From an uncultured Ruminiclostridium sp. (GTDB taxonomy: Bacteria; Bacillota; Clostridia; Oscillospirales; Ruminococcaceae): DNA of 64,000 bases. Both the position numbers and the translations under genes were made by a program. Location: contig CANQIB010000010.1 in NCBI GenBank assembly GCA_947623915.1, forward strand, positions 16,350-80,349, given 5' to 3'. Positions 55,454 to 63,848 of this stretch are shown in pieces (position 1 is the stretch's first letter; each line of letters begins with the position of its first letter). The notes under the pieces were generated by a model, which saw only the letters and a program-made list of their open reading frames with translations, was not told where the DNA came from and searched no databases.

Positions 55454-56491
55454 ATGGCAAGAAATCACATTTTTACAAATTCCGGCATCTCTACGCTCTG
55501 CTCGGAGCTGGGCTCGATAATCAAGTCCGGCATAACGGTTTCCGACGGACTGTTTATGCTCGCTCAGGAAGAGGAGGATAAAGACGCCAAGCGCGTGCTG
55601 GAAAAAATGCTGAACACCCTGGAAAACGGCGGCTCGGTGTACGACGCTTTTGAAAGCACGGGAGCGTTCCCGTCCTATCTGCTGGAGATGATAGCGATAG
55701 GAGAAAAGACCGGCAGGATAGAAGCGGTGTTGTTTTCGCTGTCGTCCTACTACGCCCGTCAGGACGAATTATCCGGCGCGATACGCAGCGCGGTCATATA
55801 TCCGGCGGTCCTGCTGGTAACGGTGTTCGCGGTGATAATAATACTGGTTACATATGTACTTCCCGTATTCAGCGAAGTATTCGCGCAGCTGGGTCTGACG
55901 ATGTCCGACCCGTCCGTATGGGTAATGACGGTAGGCGCGTCGATAAGCCGCATAGCCGTGGTGGTGATAGCGGTGATAGCCGCGCTGCTGATAATAGGCG
56001 TTATCCTGTACCGACTCGTTCCGAAATTCAAAAAAGCGGTGCTTTCCGCGGCGTCGCATACCAAGACCGCCAAGGCTCTGTACAGCGCACGCTTTGCCAA
56101 CGCGCTGTCCATGACTCTTTCGAGCGGTATGGATATCGACGAATCGGTGGCGATGAGCGAAAAGCTGATAGAAAATCCGATAATGCTGTCAAAAATACAT
56201 CAGGTACGCAAGGATATGAGCGACGGCGCGTCCTTTGTAGACGCGGTATCGCGGGCGCAGCTCTTCTCAAAGGTATACACCCGCATGATAAGCATAGGCT
56301 TCAACACCGGCTCGATAGACAGCGTTATGGAGGATATAGCCAAGAGCAACGAGGGCAAGGTAAACTCCGTCATGCAAACGGCGGTCAGCCGTTTTGAACC
56401 GGCTATGGTCATAATCATGGCGATAACGGTGGGATTTATCCTGCTTTCGGTCATGCTGCCGTTGTTGGGCATAATGACGGTAATAGGATAG
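55454..56491 (+). CDS. type IV pilus / type II secretion inner-membrane platform protein (PilC/GspF)
   Basis: This 345-residue protein has two T2SSF repeats, residues 10-130 (ELGSIIKSGITVSDGLFMLAQEE and YLLEMIAIGEKTGRIEAVL) and 210-330 (FANALSMTLSSGMDIDESVAM and MISIGFNTGSIDSVMEDIA), with membrane helices near 113-138, 160-185 and 315-340. PilC proteins couple the cytoplasmic motor to the growing pilus. RBS AGGAGAGG. It starts the pilus run; five further genes follow on the same strand. Confidence 0.92.
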   Translation: MARNHIFTNSGISTLCSELGSIIKSGITVSDGLFMLAQEEEDKDAKRVLEKMLNTLENGGSVYDAFESTGAFPSYLLEMIAIGEKTGRIEAVLFSLSSYYARQDELSGAIRSAVIYPAVLLVTVFAVIIILVTYVLPVFSEVFAQLGLTMSDPSVWVMTVGASISRIAVVVIAVIAALLIIGVILYRLVPKFKKAVLSAASHTKTAKALYSARFANALSMTLSSGMDIDESVAMSEKLIENPIMLSKIHQVRKDMSDGASFVDAVSRAQLFSKVYTRMISIGFNTGSIDSVMEDIAKSNEGKVNSVMQTAVSRFEPAMVIIMAITVGFILLSVMLPLLGIMTVIG

Positions 56492-56501
56492 GAGTCGTAG
56501 C

Positions 56502-56825
56502 ATGAAACATTTTCGCAGCGGCTTTTTCGGGGTGCTGGTAAAGGACCTTCTGATACCTGCGGCGGTCTGCGCCGTGATAATCGTGCTGACGGTCTTTTCG
56601 GTAAACTCCGCCGGCGCGAACGCCGAATCGGAAAACGCCATGATAATTGAACAGGGCATAAGACGCGCCGCGACGGCGTGCTATGCCGCCGAGGGGATAT
56701 ATCCCGAAAGCATAGATTACCTTGTGGAAAACTACTCTCTCAAGATAGATACGCAGCGGTACAATATACTGTACAACTCCGTCGCGTCAAACGTCATGCC
56801 CGATATACGGGTATCCGCGAAATAA
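56502..56825 (+). CDS. small pilin-like membrane protein
   Basis: This 107-residue protein has a basic N-terminus, one hydrophobic helix (about 14-36) and a small C-terminal domain with IRRAATACYAAEGIYPESIDYLVENYSLKID..RYNILYN, which resembles the globular part of small pseudopilins (periodic YP..LxxL near GspG). The prepilin peptidase motif G-[F/V]-xx-[I/L]-E is not obvious, so it may not be processed. It lies 10 bp after PilC. Family assignment is moderate. Confidence 0.7.
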   Translation: MKHFRSGFFGVLVKDLLIPAAVCAVIIVLTVFSVNSAGANAESENAMIIEQGIRRAATACYAAEGIYPESIDYLVENYSLKIDTQRYNILYNSVASNVMPDIRVSAK

Positions 56826-56875
56826 CGCCATAGCTTGGGAGCAAAAATTTCGGAAAACGAACGGAAGTGATAAGC

Positions 56876-57385
56876 ATGAACCAAAACGAACCTCAAAAAG
56901 TCAATAAAAGCAGACTGGACACAATTTTTGTGCTGACTCTGTTCGTGCTTTTCGCCGCAAGTCTGCTGACGGTAACGGTGTACTTCGCCAAGGTGTACCG
57001 CGATACCGGCGAGCGCATAACAGAGCGGTTCGACGGCTCCACGGCGATGACCGTGCTGACCCAGAAGATAAGGGCATACGACTGTTCCGGCGGGATAGAG
57101 ATAATCCCGCGTGAACAGGGCAATATCCTGCGGCTGAACGAGGAGATAGACGGGGAAGAGTATTCCACCTACATATACTGTCACGACGGCAGCCTGCGCG
57201 AGCTTTTCAACAGCGCGCAGACCGAGTTTGACGAAAACAGCGGTATGCCGATAATACAAGCTGACAGCTTTGATATAAAGCAGGAGGGCGGCTCGTATAT
57301 GATGACCCTCACCACCGACGGAAAAACGCTGACAAGGTGCGTTGCTCCGAGAGTCGCACAAATCGGAGGTGCCGAAGATGAGTGA
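56876..57385 (+). CDS. pilus-locus membrane protein (DUF4860-like)
   Basis: This 169-residue protein has one N-terminal membrane helix (about 17-40) followed by a soluble beta-rich domain with IKAYDCSGG-like spacing (IRAYDCSGGIEIIP) and a C-terminal KTLTRCVAPR. I recognise the pattern of DUF4860, which occurs with type IV pilus genes in Clostridia; the role is presumably a minor pilin-like or assembly protein. Start at 56876 follows GGAAGTGA. Its end overlaps the next gene by eight bases. Confidence 0.75.
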   Translation: MNQNEPQKVNKSRLDTIFVLTLFVLFAASLLTVTVYFAKVYRDTGERITERFDGSTAMTVLTQKIRAYDCSGGIEIIPREQGNILRLNEEIDGEEYSTYIYCHDGSLRELFNSAQTEFDENSGMPIIQADSFDIKQEGGSYMMTLTTDGKTLTRCVAPRVAQIGGAEDE

Positions 57386-57785
57386 ACGCAGTCATAACCA
57401 TTCAAAATCCGGCGTTTTTCTGATAGAGCTGCTGATAATAATCGCGGTATTCGCGATATGCAGCGCCGTATGCGTAAAGGTGCTGGCGACCGCCGAGGAG
57501 GAGCTTGATTACAGCGAACGGCTCACCCTTGCGGCAAACTACGCCTGCGATATTGCCGAGCGATTCCGCTCCGGCGAGGAAAAAGCCGAGATAATAGAGG
57601 AATACTCCGAGCTTTACTCGAAGGATATAGAGATACTGCCGAACGCAAAGGACTTTTCGGGCGGCACGCTTGTCTGCACGCTGGAGCAGACGGAGGGCGA
57701 AAACAACGTTTCCTATCTGAAGATAGTTATAAGCGACGGCGGCGAGCATACCTATGCCGACGTCACCGCGGCAAGAACGGATTGA
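57378..57785 (+). CDS. prepilin-like protein (minor pilin)
   Basis: This 135-residue protein has the type III/IV prepilin signature: short basic leader, KSG then VFLIELLIIIAVFAICSAV, with glutamate at +5 of the mature helix. The C-terminal part (TLVCTLEQTEGENNVSYLKIVI) is beta-rich. It should be cut by a prepilin peptidase, which is not encoded here. Start at 57378 is set by GGAGGTGCC. Overlap with the preceding gene indicates coupled translation. Confidence 0.8.
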   Translation: MSERSHNHSKSGVFLIELLIIIAVFAICSAVCVKVLATAEEELDYSERLTLAANYACDIAERFRSGEEKAEIIEEYSELYSKDIEILPNAKDFSGGTLVCTLEQTEGENNVSYLKIVISDGGEHTYADVTAARTD

Positions 57786-57822
57786 CCGACAAAGCAACGG
57801 AAAGGAGAGCGCGGGCGCGTTT

Positions 57823-58287
57823 ATGAAAATCAAAAATAAAGCGGGCGGATTTTCGGGAGTCGGCATATCTTCGCTGATAATCGTCTTTACGGTGCTGGCT
57901 CTTACGATATTTACTTTGCTCACCCTGCTTACCGTAAGGCAGGACTTGGAGCTGAGCCGCAAGACCGCGAAAATGCAGACGGATTATTACGCCGCGGACA
58001 CCGCCGCAGTCGAACGGCTGGGGACGCTGAAACGGCTGGCGGCAGAAAATCCCGACGGGGCGCTGCTTAAATTTGCGGCGGACAACGAGGGATTTCAAAG
58101 CAAAAGCGAGGGCGACAGCATCATATTCAGCTGGAGCTCCGAAATAAACGACGCGGGACGCATCGAATGTGAGGCGGTCTACAGCGAAGGAAAAATCACG
58201 GTTACAAAGTGGCATACCGTATCGAATGCCTCTTATATAAACGAGGAGTCGCTCCCCATATGGGACGGCAACACGCTTCCCGTATAA
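57823..58287 (+). CDS. PilX/GspK-like minor pilin or pilus-associated membrane protein
   Basis: This 154-residue protein has a membrane helix (about 14-40, FSGVGISSLIIVFTVLALTIFTLLTLLTV) followed by DYYAADTAAVERL, a segment like the YYAAEAG motif of PilX-type minor pilins, and a beta-rich C-terminus. It lacks the glutamate at +5. The ATG at 57823 is the only good start, though AAAGGAG is 15 bases upstream. It sits between the prepilin-like gene and the PilT-like gene. Confidence 0.7.
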   Translation: MKIKNKAGGFSGVGISSLIIVFTVLALTIFTLLTLLTVRQDLELSRKTAKMQTDYYAADTAAVERLGTLKRLAAENPDGALLKFAADNEGFQSKSEGDSIIFSWSSEINDAGRIECEAVYSEGKITVTKWHTVSNASYINEESLPIWDGNTLPV

Positions 58288-58304
58288 AGAAAGGATATTT
58301 TGTA

Positions 58305-59369
58305 ATGGAACTTATGGAAATACTCAAAAACGCGGTAGAAAAGAGCGCGTCGGACATATTTATCGTTCCGGGGCTGCCTATATCTTATAAAGAGAACGGC
58401 ATAATAAAGCCGCAGGTGGAGGGCATAACCCCGCCCGCCGCCGCCGAGGAGCTGGTAAAAGCGATATACGCCGCGGCAAACCGCAGCATGGCGCATTTCG
58501 ACGAAACGGGCGACGACGATTTTTCAGTATCGGTAAAAGGCCTGAGCCGTTTCAGAATAAGCGCGTACCGTCAAAGAGGCACGCTGGCGGCGGTAATAAG
58601 ACTGGTATCCTTTGACATACCCGACTACCGCACGCTCAACATAATCCCCGAAATAATCACCGACACCGCCTCCCGCACCAAGGGACTGGTTCTGGTGACG
58701 GGCCCCGCGGGCGGCGGAAAATCCACCACCCTCGCCTGCATAATAGACGAGATAAACAAAAACCGAAACGGGCATATCATCACGCTTGAGGACCCCATAG
58801 AGTTTCTCCATAAAAACAAAAAAAGCGTCGTAAGCCAAAGAGAGGTCGGCAACGACACGGAAAGCTACATAACTGCGCTGCGCGCCAGCCTGCGTCAATC
58901 CCCCGACGTGATACTCCTCGGAGAGATGCGCGACTATGAAACGATAAGCACGGCGATGACCGCGGCGGAGACCGGACATTTGGTAATATCCACCCTCCAC
59001 TCCGTCGGCGCACAGAACACGATAGACCGTATAATAGACATATTCCCATCGGGTCAGCAGCAGCAGATAAGGATACAGCTTTCCCAGCTTTTATGCTCCA
59101 TAATCTCGCAGCAGCTCATTCCCTGCGAGGACGACATACTGCGTCCCGCGTTTGAAATAATGAAGTGCAACAACGCGATAAGGAACATGATAAGAGAATC
59201 CAAGACTCACCAGATAGACACGGTGATAACCTCCTCCGGAGCGGACGGAATGGTCACGATGGACGCAAGTCTTATGAAAATGTACAACCAAAAGCTCATT
59301 TCCAAGAACACGCTTATAAGATACAGCACCCATCCTGAGATAGCCGCGAGAAAGATCGGAGAACAGTAA
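58305..59369 (+). CDS. pilT: PilT-type retraction ATPase
   Basis: This 354-residue hexameric motor is of the type that disassembles pilin filaments. Motifs: Walker A GPAGGGKSTT, Asp box ITLEDPIEF, Walker B DVILLGEMRD, His box GHLVISTLHS, and the PilT-specific AIRNMIRE near the C-terminus. No PilB-like assembly ATPase is encoded in the window, which leaves PilT as the only motor in the locus. The start at 58305 follows AAAGGA and is 18 bp from the previous stop. A terminator follows the gene. Confidence 0.9.
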   Translation: MELMEILKNAVEKSASDIFIVPGLPISYKENGIIKPQVEGITPPAAAEELVKAIYAAANRSMAHFDETGDDDFSVSVKGLSRFRISAYRQRGTLAAVIRLVSFDIPDYRTLNIIPEIITDTASRTKGLVLVTGPAGGGKSTTLACIIDEINKNRNGHIITLEDPIEFLHKNKKSVVSQREVGNDTESYITALRASLRQSPDVILLGEMRDYETISTAMTAAETGHLVISTLHSVGAQNTIDRIIDIFPSGQQQQIRIQLSQLLCSIISQQLIPCEDDILRPAFEIMKCNNAIRNMIRESKTHQIDTVITSSGADGMVTMDASLMKMYNQKLISKNTLIRYSTHPEIAARKIGEQ

Positions 59370-59448: not shown

Positions 59449-59767
59449 CATGACGGAAAGAAAAGTAAAAATCAAGGTAGGGTCTACCTATAATCTACGA
59501 TTATATTATTACATTCGGCGGTTACATCTCGGTTACGTTTTGTAAAATTATTTAAGAAATCGTGATATTTTTATATTGTTACAAAAATATGCGCCGATAT
59601 GCGGGATTTTTTATACATATCCCATAACAATAAAGTAACCGTTATTGTTTTTTCAGCATAAAATAGCCCCAAAACGCGCGGCAGGCGGAAAAAACAAAAA
59701 AATTTTTTCGGTTTTTAAGGAAAAAACACACCGTACGAACAAAAAACGGCAGAAAGGAGCAGACGGC
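59449..59767. other. long intergenic region before the SARP-like gene
   Basis: About 320 bp without a gene. It holds a GGTAGGGTCTACC palindrome at 59476-59488, a TATAAT at 59489-59494, direct repeats of GTTAC 11 bp apart at 59521-59537, an isolated GTAACC at 59635-59640, and TAAAAT at 59659-59664. No promoter with both boxes at good match was found. Confidence 0.6.
59521..59538. promoter_or_regulatory. 11-bp-spaced GTTAC direct repeat upstream of the SARP-like gene
   Basis: GTTACAT at 59521-59527 and GTTACGT at 59532-59538 start 11 bp apart; TTACAT also occurs 13 bp before the first. The reverse strand reads ACGTAACCGAG then ATGTAACCGCC, closely matching the repeats before the EAL gene. It lies about 230 bp upstream of the start codon. 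Possible autoregulatory site. Confidence 0.5.
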
Positions 59768-60943
59768 ATGGCGGCATTATACATAACTATGCTGGGCGAA
59801 TTTTCGGTATCCTACCGTGACAAGATACTGCGCGAAAAGGATCTGCGCGGCTCTAAGCTGTGGACGCTGTTTCAGTATCTTATCGCCCATCGGGAGCGTG
59901 AAGTATCCCAAAACGAGCTTATAGAGCTGCTGTGGGAAAACAGCCGCAACCCCGCTAACGCTCTTAAAACGCTCGTTCATCGGCTGCGTCGGCTCATGTC
60001 CGGCATACTGCCGGACGGCGCGGAGCTTATCGTAAATAACGGAAGCTCTTACCGTTTTGCTCCGAATATCGAATGTATCATAGATTCGGGAGAATTTACC
60101 CGCCTTTGCAAGCTGGCGGACGACGGAGGTCTGTCCAGGACCAAGCGTGCAAACCTTTACAAGCGCGCGTTGGAGCTGTACCGAGGGGATTACCTTATCA
60201 GCCGCTCCGACGAAACGTGGGTGCTGCCGGTCAACGTTTATTTCCACACCATGTATACCTCGGCGGTGGACAAATACGTCTGCTTGCTTTACCCTATGGG
60301 GAAATTCAGTGAAATATGTCGGGTATGCGAGCACGGCATAATAATAAACCCCACCGACGAGAAGATGCACATACAGCTGATACGCGCCATGACCGCCATG
60401 GGAGAATATACGCAGGCCGCCAAGCAGTACGAGTACATCAAGCGGCTTTTACTGGAGCAGTACGGCGCGCCGCCCTCCACACGCCTTACCGAGCTGTACG
60501 AAACCACCGTCAAGCCGCGCAACGAAACGCAAAACGACCTTGACGCGGTCATCGGCGAAATATCCGAAGAGCCGCAGTCGGGCGGATATTACTGCGAATA
60601 CGAGGTATTCAAATATATTTTCAGAGCCGACCGCCGTGAAAGCAAGCGCAACGGGCGCGACCTTTCGATAGCAATGCTAACGCTGAACGACGGCAAAGGC
60701 ACTCCGCTGAACGACGGCAAGCTGCTCAACAAAGCCATGGACAGGCTTTTGGAATGTATACGCGGCTCGCTCAGAATGAGCGACGTTTTCACCCGATTCA
60801 GCAGATGTCAGTACATTTTGATGCTGCCGGAGGCGGACAGACAGGCGTGCGACAGGGTGCGGGAAAGAATATCGTCGAAATTCCGACGCTTTCAAAATAA
60901 AAACGGAATTTCGCTGGATTTTACAGACCGACAGATGACCTGA
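59768..60943 (+). CDS. SARP/BTAD-type transcriptional regulator with degenerate GGDEF-like tail
   Basis: This 391-residue protein has an OmpR-type winged helix (1-95; LYITMLGEFSVSYRDKIL, SKLWTLFQYLIAHREREVSQNELIELLW), a bacterial transcriptional activation domain of TPR type (100-245; LYKRALELYRGDYLI, MHIQLIRAMTAMGEYTQAAKQYE), and a C-terminal region (about 275-385) patterned like a GGDEF domain, with LRMSDVFTRFSRCQYILMLPEAD where an active one has R-D-x-x-x-R-x-G-G-D-E-F. The GGDEF signature is lost, so it might bind a ligand or mediate contacts. SARP regulators bind 11-bp direct repeats; such repeats are present upstream. The start at 59768 follows AAAGGAG. Confidence 0.85.
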   Translation: MAALYITMLGEFSVSYRDKILREKDLRGSKLWTLFQYLIAHREREVSQNELIELLWENSRNPANALKTLVHRLRRLMSGILPDGAELIVNNGSSYRFAPNIECIIDSGEFTRLCKLADDGGLSRTKRANLYKRALELYRGDYLISRSDETWVLPVNVYFHTMYTSAVDKYVCLLYPMGKFSEICRVCEHGIIINPTDEKMHIQLIRAMTAMGEYTQAAKQYEYIKRLLLEQYGAPPSTRLTELYETTVKPRNETQNDLDAVIGEISEEPQSGGYYCEYEVFKYIFRADRRESKRNGRDLSIAMLTLNDGKGTPLNDGKLLNKAMDRLLECIRGSLRMSDVFTRFSRCQYILMLPEADRQACDRVRERISSKFRRFQNKNGISLDFTDRQMT

Positions 60944-61037: not shown

Positions 61038-61066
61038 TTGACATAATCAGCTTGCCATGTTATAAT
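61038..61066 (+). promoter_or_regulatory. consensus sigma-A promoter of the EAL gene
   Basis: TTGACA (61038-61043) and TATAAT (61061-61066), both perfect, spacer 17 bp. The leader is about 45 bases. Confidence 0.88.
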
Positions 61067-61118
61067 TAGTATAATTAAACGAGCAGACGGCATGCCCGCC
61101 GAAAGGAGCGCAGCAGCA

Positions 61119-63848
61119 ATGAGTTTTTTTGAACAGGACGGTAAAACAGCACCGTACTGGCAGCTCTTTACAAAAAATTTCCCCGCTATAGGCGCATTTG
61201 TTATATTCAACACCGAGGACAAGGTATTTATAGATGAAAACGCCGCCGCTGTCCTCAAAGTTCCCATATCCGTCGGAAAGGACGAGATGTTCGCGGTCAT
61301 CGACACGCTGACGGAAAATCCCGACGAGGGCGGGAAGAACATCTATATCTACAAGACCGACGAGGGGCAAAAGTGGATAAGTCTTAAACTTAACTATCTT
61401 TCCGACAGTATGCTCGGCTTTGTGGAAGACGTTTCACAGCAGTTTGCCGAGCGGCAGAAAAACAGCGTCGGTCATGCCGACGACGATTTCCCGCGCGAAA
61501 AATTCATACACGGAGTACGCGCCGCTATGGCTCAGGTTTCGGGCAGCACCGCGCAATGCTGCATGGCGGTACTCAATATAAACGGCATAGAAAAGGCGGA
61601 CAGCGAGCTTAATTACGAACGCACCGACCTTTGCGCCTCCGCGGTAACGCGCGTTTTGAAAAAATTTGAATCGGAAGACGTGCTTATCGGCACGAAAAGC
61701 TATAAGGAATATTACATATTTTTCCGTCAGCTCCCCAAAAGCGAGATATACGGAATGTTCAAGGAAATGTCCGACGCTTTGCAGGACTGCCGCATAATAG
61801 ACGAGCAGGGCAACGAGCTGCAGACCCGCAGCGGGCTGTTCACCGCCATGATAGGATACTGCTGGTATCCCGTGCAGGCGGCAAGTCTGGATATGTCCTT
61901 TACCTATGCGGATTTTGCGCTGTACCGCGCCATGGCGTCCGGCAGCGTGATAAGGGAGTTCGACCCCGCCGAATTTACCTCCGAGCTTATGAGCTATTCG
62001 GCTTCAAAAGAGCTTGACGAGCTTATCGACAAAAACGATTTCGATTATCATTTCCAGCCGATAGTAAACGCGGCGGACGGCTCGATATTCGCTTACGAGG
62101 CGTTGATGAGACCCAACGGCTACACCCCGCTGGAAGTGCTTAAAATGGCGCGCGACAACGGCAGGCTGTATGATATAGAGCTGCTCACCTTTGAAAACGT
62201 GCTTGCCAAGGTGAATAAAAACCTCGACCGATTTGAGGGAAAGAAAATATTCATAAATTCCATACCCGAATGTATGCTTAAGGTCAACGATTTCAACAGG
62301 CTGTGCGAGCGGTACGGCGACCTTATAAGCCGTATCGTCATCGAATTTACCGAGCAGTCGGATTTCACCAACGAGCGGGTAATGGAGCTTAAAGACATCT
62401 ATTGCGCCAAGGGCTGTGAAATAGCCATCGACGATTACGGCAGCGGATATTCAAATTCCGCGGCTATGGTCAAGATAGCGCCGGATTATCTGAAAATAGA
62501 CCGTTCGCTTATCGCGGAAATAAACAAAAACACCCGCAAGCAGCATTTCCTGTCGGGGATAATAGATTTTGCCCGTCTGAACGGCATAAAGGTGCTGGCG
62601 GAGGGCGTGGAAAACTTCGAGGAGATGAGCGTGACGATAAGGCGCGGGGTGGATCTCATACAGGGCTTCTACACGGCGCGTCCGAATCCCGAAGCTATCT
62701 CCCGCTTATCGGAGGAGGTCTTGGGCGAGATAGAAGCGGTCAACCGCACCAAGCCTGAAATAAAGATCTCAAAGTCCTACGAGGTGACCGAAAAGAGCTA
62801 TGTGCCGCTGGATATAAACAAGCTGGCGGAGCAAAAATACACCGATATAGTTATTTCGGCGGATTTTGTTTACCTTAAAGGCGGCGCAGGCACTATCCCC
62901 AACTTCAATATCAAGGTAACGGATCACTCTGTCACCACGATAGTGCTTGAGGACGTGAATATAAACGGCGGGGTAAGGCAATGTATAAGCATAGGCGACC
63001 ATGCCGTGGTAAGTCTTGACCTGCGCGGCAGCAACCTGCTGAGTTATGACGGTATAGCGGTACCCGACAGCGCGTCCCTTTCCGTTATCGGTACAGGCTC
63101 GCTGAAAATAGATTCCTACCGCAACAACGGCTGCTGCATAGGCAGCGCGTACAATGAACCGTTCGGCAATATAACCATAGACACCGAGGGCACTCTGACG
63201 CTTATTTCCAACGGCGACCACAGCGTCGGGATAGGTGGCGGAGTTACCGACGGCGACGGCGGTATCACCGTAAAGCGCGGCACACTGAGTTTGTCCGTTA
63301 CCGGCGAGGACAGCGTGGCTATAGGCTCTTACGACGGCAACTGCAATATCGCGCTGGAGCTTTGCTCGGTGGATATAGTGACCTCCGGCGACCGCTCCGC
63401 GGCTATCGGTTCGCTCAACGGCGCTCCTAAGATAACCGTTCGCAACAGCGATATCAAAATCGACAGCTCCGGCGTTTGTACGGCGGGAATGGGTACGCTC
63501 GCCTCCTATATCCGCAAGAGCAATCTGCCTAAGATAGCGATAGACGGCTCGCGGCTGGAGCTGGTGTTCAAAGGACAGCTCGGCGCGGGTATAGGCAGCC
63601 GCTCGACCGAGTGCGAGATATACATAAACGGCACCGACGCGGGTATCTACTTTGAGGGCGACAAGCTGGCGGGCATAGGCTGCGCAAGCAGCACGGGTCT
63701 GCTGAACATGGACAACTGCAATATAAACATCTCCTCGCTTTGCGGAAGAGATTCCGTCGAGATAGGTTTTCGTGATACCCTCTCGAAGATAACCCACAGC
63801 AAGATAAACAACATCGCAATAAATACCGATTCCTATTCGGGTATTTAA
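61119..63848 (+). CDS. EAL-domain protein with PAS- and GGDEF-like N-terminus and C-terminal beta-solenoid
   Basis: This 909-residue protein lacks a signal peptide and membrane helices, so it should be cytosolic. Residues 1-105 are PAS-like, about 115-290 resemble a GGDEF domain without the signature, and 300-530 are an EAL domain with the catalytic residues kept: Glu327 (YEALMRP), Asn in IFINS, Glu in EFTEQS, Asp438/Asp439 (IDDYGSG), Lys459 (LKID), Glu495 (AEGVE). It is therefore expected to hydrolyse cyclic di-GMP. From about 570 to 905 come repeated strands with AIGS, GIGG and GIGS turns about 25-35 residues apart, the pattern of a parallel beta-helix usually found on surface or carbohydrate-binding proteins. 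This fusion is unusual. It follows the SARP-like gene by 175 bp, with its own promoter. Confidence 0.87.
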   Translation: MSFFEQDGKTAPYWQLFTKNFPAIGAFVIFNTEDKVFIDENAAAVLKVPISVGKDEMFAVIDTLTENPDEGGKNIYIYKTDEGQKWISLKLNYLSDSMLGFVEDVSQQFAERQKNSVGHADDDFPREKFIHGVRAAMAQVSGSTAQCCMAVLNINGIEKADSELNYERTDLCASAVTRVLKKFESEDVLIGTKSYKEYYIFFRQLPKSEIYGMFKEMSDALQDCRIIDEQGNELQTRSGLFTAMIGYCWYPVQAASLDMSFTYADFALYRAMASGSVIREFDPAEFTSELMSYSASKELDELIDKNDFDYHFQPIVNAADGSIFAYEALMRPNGYTPLEVLKMARDNGRLYDIELLTFENVLAKVNKNLDRFEGKKIFINSIPECMLKVNDFNRLCERYGDLISRIVIEFTEQSDFTNERVMELKDIYCAKGCEIAIDDYGSGYSNSAAMVKIAPDYLKIDRSLIAEINKNTRKQHFLSGIIDFARLNGIKVLAEGVENFEEMSVTIRRGVDLIQGFYTARPNPEAISRLSEEVLGEIEAVNRTKPEIKISKSYEVTEKSYVPLDINKLAEQKYTDIVISADFVYLKGGAGTIPNFNIKVTDHSVTTIVLEDVNINGGVRQCISIGDHAVVSLDLRGSNLLSYDGIAVPDSASLSVIGTGSLKIDSYRNNGCCIGSAYNEPFGNITIDTEGTLTLISNGDHSVGIGGGVTDGDGGITVKRGTLSLSVTGEDSVAIGSYDGNCNIALELCSVDIVTSGDRSAAIGSLNGAPKITVRNSDIKIDSSGVCTAGMGTLASYIRKSNLPKIAIDGSRLELVFKGQLGAGIGSRSTECEIYINGTDAGIYFEGDKLAGIGCASSTGLLNMDNCNINISSLCGRDSVEIGFRDTLSKITHSKINNIAINTDSYSGI

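Follow-up and report, generated by a model that had tools for sequence, protein, structure and literature searches.

The question raised by this locus is what a beta-helix, of a kind otherwise seen in secreted proteins, does at the C terminus of an EAL-domain protein that appears to stay in the cytosol. We analyzed a 64,000-nucleotide stretch of contig CANQIB010000010.1 from an uncultured Ruminiclostridium sp. (the window), in which the gene encodes a protein of 909 residues (Table 1). The longest reading frame opens at position 61,092; we judged 61,119 to be the better start because it is preceded by an AGGAG site, is the start of database entry P0001, and has the same layout in six relatives, where a G-rich ribosome site is followed by a start at the equivalent place. 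A promoter-like site lies farther upstream, and from the DNA a separate transcript for the gene is likely; a fixed promoter pattern found matches upstream of the genes at L101, L106, and L107 and none upstream of those at L102-L104. An Rfam scan of the window returned one tRNA and nothing else.

The contig, and with it the window, ends 152 bases past the stop codon, as might happen had assembly joined parts of a phosphodiesterase gene and a surface-protein gene into a chimera. Against this, four further members of the genus have the same uninterrupted fused frame (G009, G035, G030, and G018; 66-73% identity), and fusions are found in many genomes, including the records, not titled MAG, of R. 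flavefaciens Y1, R. albus 8, and Lachnospiraceae LC2019. We consider the chimera refuted, and the fusion first described stands: the reading frame is continuous, with neither frameshift nor assembly join.

Table 1. Features of the EAL/beta-helix gene, its product, and its upstream neighbors (positions in the window)
Feature	Position	Strand	Basis and remarks
Type IV pilus/type II secretion-like cluster	55454-59369		T2SSF, DUF4860 protein, small proteins, T2SSE ATPase
BTAD/Trans_reg_C (SARP-like) regulator	59645..60943	+	Pfam; weak C-terminal GGDEF match, E 0.024; upstream gene, not part of the protein
Sigma-70-type promoter-like site, TTGACA-17-TATAAT, TG before second hexamer	61038..61066	+	12/12 matches
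AGGAG ribosome-binding site	61104..61108	+	Sequence; similar upstream of relatives
CDS, 909-residue EAL/beta-helix protein	61119..63848 (including stop)	+	ORF list; database entry P0001 starts there
PAS-like N-terminal region, residues about 1-115	61119..61463	+	Fold only, no Pfam match
Degenerate GGDEF-like region, residues about 125-285, signature SYKEY	61491..61973	+	Alignment and structure comparison
EAL domain (PF00563), residues 298-522	62010..62684	+	Pfam
C-terminal right-handed beta-helix (predicted), residues 548-909	62760..63845	+	Structure prediction, motif

The EAL domain is the sole Pfam domain above cut-off in the protein (E 1.9e-48, 165.3 bits versus a cut-off of 31.3). Ten EAL positions were checked and all are present, in agreement with the initial annotation, which had reported a complete set of catalytic residues. 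Eight of them (E327, N380, E409, D438, K459, D461, E495, and E498) are kept in 47 of 47 aligned proteins, D439 in 45, and Q515 in 46. The choice of these positions, and of those among them that are catalytic, follows RocR/BlrP1-type work. We infer that the EAL domain is an active c-di-GMP phosphodiesterase. Judged by its residues, the GGDEF-like region has lost the diguanylate cyclase signature: none of 75 family members has an intact GG[DE]EF, and a relaxed xG[DE]EF occurs in four of them. In ten pairs drawn from five orthologues, dN/dS was 0.05-0.13 for the EAL domain, 0.04-0.25 for the GGDEF-like region, and 0.09-0.23 for the helix, with a helix value of 0.089 in the only close pair and synonymous differences of 0.55-0.66 in the other nine. 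The GGDEF-like region is thus no more tightly constrained than the helix, which is itself under purifying selection.

A full-length AlphaFold2 model had a mean pLDDT of 87.1 and a pTM of 0.47, so that each domain is well folded in the model but how the domains sit against one another is uncertain. On structure comparison, residues about 10-530 superposed on GGDEF-EAL and PAS-GGDEF-EAL proteins, e.g., PA0861. The protein shares with PA0861, MorA, and DosP this domain order, the EAL fold, and the catalytic positions. Those enzymes stop at or near the EAL domain, whereas the window protein, besides its lost GGDEF signature, continues into a 360-residue predicted beta-helix. YkuI of Bacillus subtilis (2w27 in the structure-comparison list) likewise carries an extra C-terminal domain after the EAL domain; that domain is PAS-like in YkuI and a beta-helix here.

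When residues 548-909 were modeled separately, the prediction was a beta-helix closed by a 7-residue disordered tail (mean pLDDT 93.3, pTM 0.92), bearing out the helix that had been proposed from the letters, and an xIG-type motif recurs about every 28 residues over most of its length. Pfam and NCBIfam gave no match over cut-off covering the helix in the members scanned. To compare helices across the family, we used a 42-row alignment, A2, which omits 12 of 53 scanned loci, some because they are incomplete sequences; the helix piece in its rows is 338-424 residues long (median 360). At L026, L029, L031, and L040 the helix is followed by a further C-terminal piece, some 50-70 residues long, whose end shows a ...VY.P-type pattern, and the ends of L073 and L091 are similar. 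The pattern is reminiscent of a repeat that follows secreted GIG-type helices.

A profile search with the helix alignment, which scored the 7993 candidates sharing most words, yielded 51 proteins, of which 27 carry EAL, 23 lack it, and one (P0077) is a fragment. Nineteen of the 23 have Beta_helix_3 (PF18889), and 16 look secreted by a criterion applied to this EAL-less set only (10-residue hydropathy >=2.0 near the N terminus, or a lipobox), while some of the others may be truncated at the start. The A2 profile picks up P0078, a Beta_helix_3 protein with SLH domains, at E 1.3e-18, and hhalign aligned A2 with ten secreted-type proteins at a probability of 99.1 (E 4.9e-19, 185 columns, 32% identities). 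These searches agree with the early claim that such helices are otherwise found in secreted proteins. The PF18889 profile had no match in the window protein at E 1. Fused and secreted helices share the run GxNxLxxxGIxVPxxxxLxIxGxGxL and GIG-type turns. They differ in that the secreted proteins lack EAL and are richer in Thr (12.0% versus 6.0%), whereas the fused helices are richer in charged residues (Arg 3.8% versus 1.3%, Glu 6.0% versus 3.4%). We conclude that the helix, whose fold is itself a prediction, probably has a remote common ancestry with adhesin-type, secreted Beta_helix_3 surface helices.

The helix is also a predicted remote relative of the carbohydrate-binding Cthe_2159 domain (PF14262; PDB 4PEU/4PHB), with which it shares, in the model, a right-handed beta-helix fold. 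The kinship lies below Pfam detection: the PF14262 profile gave no match in the window helix at E 1, 2 of the 42 A2 rows match weakly (best 3.3e-4), and P0036 scores 22.7 bits versus a cut-off of 25.8. Unlike Cthe_2159, the window helix has no secretion signal and is joined to a cytosolic enzyme. Cthe_2159 is described as a binder of cellulose and polygalacturonic acid (PMC6712302), and both it and the SRRP adhesins work outside the cell, on carbohydrates or surfaces (PMC6712302, PMC9210967).

This kinship raises the possibility that the helix senses carbohydrate inside the cell: by binding glycogen, or some other glycan in the cytosol or bound to the membrane, it would switch c-di-GMP hydrolysis. 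Such a role would suit the LacI-type sugar-binding fold (PF13377) found at the N terminus of 18 of 47 relatives, the glgA gene in the window's genome, and hosts that are rumen and gut bacteria. Some of these hosts are fibre degraders. The missing PF14262 match of the window helix counts against it, as does the alignment of the helices, in which no conserved exposed patch, aromatic or polar, was evident. Trp makes up 0.10% of the fused helices versus 0.64% in the relatives that are secreted, a scarcity that speaks against sugar stacking on an aromatic face. As for glycogen, a search of 37 genomes found glgA over cut-off in 27, the window's included; it is present both in genus members with the fusion and in members that gave no helix match in the whole-genome scan (e.g., G005, G010, G019, G020, and G021), so we rejected it as a discriminating link. 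Taken together, a glycan sensor seems unlikely, if still a serious competitor. A more specific version, an adhesin-type carbohydrate-binding helix moved to the cytosol as a polysaccharide sensor, so that stored or nascent glycan would directly set c-di-GMP, we hold to be distinctly unlikely.

Where, then, is the helix? In a 19-residue membrane test, a different criterion from that used for the EAL-less proteins, no segment of the window protein reached the threshold, and by eye its N terminus has no signal peptide; the initial placing of the protein in the cytosol thus stands on sequence grounds. By the same test, 63 of 75 members have no membrane segment. Three have two membrane segments, and because both precede the EAL domain, a cytosolic helix is expected in these as well. 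The helix is therefore likely to stay in the cytosol. Cys content was tried as a cytosolic mark and rejected: the whole-protein comparison gave P 0.002, whereas the medians of matched helix segments were 2.46% and 2.34% (P 0.84).

The architecture recurs in other proteins. When hits were scored on the helix region alone, 47 proteins were found, counting that of the window, and every one has EAL; with the profile search and further searches, the total came to 75 clusters of EAL-helix proteins. The order of EAL then helix is constant and the helix is C-terminal, while the part N-terminal to the EAL domain varies. Among the best 80 of 588 EAL-pattern loci, 55 encode the fusion, two of those with short helices; because these are the top-ranking loci, the share does not estimate a frequency. 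Profile search and genome scans added further fusions in Ruminococcus, Lachnospiraceae, and their allies, some of them from isolates. P0048 and P0077, helix proteins that lack EAL, look like fragments of fused proteins. Sources that name family members at all call them "EAL domain-containing protein" or something similar. In the open-licence PMC text covered, PMC9540692 included, no description of an EAL/beta-helix protein was found, and one co-occurrence of the terms concerned different genes. The initial suggestion of an unusual architecture therefore stands insofar as no published description was found; the protein is no lone oddity and belongs to a family of 75 clusters with exchangeable N-termini.

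A whole-genome scan found the helix in 22 of 60 genomes; these 22, the window's own among them, all belong to its genus, which contributed 36 of the 60. In a scan of the order, 16 of 295 genomes matched (own included); 11 matches were strong, and each of these comes from the window's family and has EAL. The other five were weak (E 3e-11 to 2e-16). Four of these, all but G593, were inspected and had no EAL in the stretch seen; two open with a hydrophobic, signal-like start and two have no clear start. In a sample of the phylum, 3 of 398 genomes matched (own included); the module is rare in the phylum at large.

EAL domains closely related to those of the family also occur without a helix. The window's genome itself encodes a close EAL paralogue, L118 (G000:C4:21766-22437), that ends 7 residues past the EAL domain, and the three other EAL domains of this genome are more distant than L118. 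On a quick 85-row EAL tree, with many open forks, with L118 and these three more distant domains absent, and with the short-helix loci L067 and L080 scored as helix-bearing, parsimony gave 8 changes of helix label, at least 3 of them forced by starred branches, versus 24.3 when labels were shuffled. This pattern may reflect an early gain followed by losses, or repeated gains. Such changes, and the helix-less paralogue, are what one would expect if the helix were a passive spacer or stabilizing tail, without a partner and freely gained and lost. We find this quite improbable given the near-constant length of the helix, the purifying selection on it, and its recurrence with different N-terminal modules.

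Conservation along the helix is mainly structural, residing in Gly, Ile, and turn residues. Mean JS conservation was 0.41 over helix residues 1-60, 0.45-0.49 over 61-180, and 0.40-0.34 beyond; the far end varies most and the turns next to the EAL domain are not the most conserved. The best conserved stretch, 61-180, corresponds to the motif run common to the secreted relatives and, because they share it, marks the fold rather than a contact with EAL. Bactofilins are cytosolic beta-helix assemblies, and near-constant length with mostly structural conservation would likewise be compatible with helices assembling end to end, gathering the enzyme into cytosolic filaments or clusters. The far end, however, is the least conserved part and closes in a disordered tail, and we regard self-assembly as improbable.

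The neighborhood offers few clues. The regulator upstream adjoins the EAL-helix gene in 7 of 66 loci, that is, in six other genomes (L021 and L103, equal in length, are apparently one contig), all within the genus. When the neighbors of these 66 loci (55 + 11) were clustered, no cluster besides the protein itself appeared in more than 9 loci. One small protein of the pilus-type cluster has a weak N_methyl match (E 0.097); pilus-type genes adjoin the fused gene in its closest relatives only, and a general pilus link was rejected. Elsewhere, a member of a sigma-70 gene cluster is found close to the fusion in 6 of the 66 loci (L022, L024, L025, L026, L029, and L034; family checked for L022), and a ychF-type GTPase at L022, L024, L025, L028, and L034 (family checked for L025). 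In the window's genome, EAL matched five times and GGDEF 13 times, the latter within 11 frames, and no PilZ match was found. The c-di-GMP-I riboswitch had no match there or in any control genome, so this absence carries no weight.

The explanation that we favor, while giving it somewhat less than an even chance, is an active c-di-GMP phosphodiesterase with a cytosolic right-handed beta-helix as a rigid docking arm that fixes the enzyme's place. The N-terminal module (PAS-like here; a LacI-type fold or membrane segments in relatives) would be the input that sets EAL activity, and the degenerate GGDEF region would pass its signal on to the EAL domain, which would hydrolyze c-di-GMP. The helix would dock on a partner, more probably a protein than a carbohydrate, leading to local clearing of c-di-GMP. 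On our reading, a docking arm fits the pattern of the helix best, with the fold motif in its middle turns and variable turns at its far end. Several observations count against it: the low confidence in the placing of EAL relative to helix (pTM 0.47), the close EAL relatives without a helix, a hydrophobic stretch within the helix of P0033, a conservation peak that falls on the fold motif of the secreted relatives instead of on the turns next to the EAL domain, the lack of any partner gene kept beside the EAL-helix gene beyond the genus, and the extracellular sites of the helix relatives with known roles (Cthe_2159, SRRP adhesins).

Enzymes of c-di-GMP metabolism are usually distinguished by their N-terminal sensors. 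Here the N-termini differ and the constant part is a C-terminal helix of secreted-protein type, in rumen and gut Clostridia that include cultured Ruminococcus. What we regard as new in this predicted phosphodiesterase family is its constant C-terminal beta-helix module, no published description having been found in open PMC text. A helix that docks or senses would represent a new way of aiming or gating c-di-GMP turnover and would put an adhesin-type fold to use in the cytosol.
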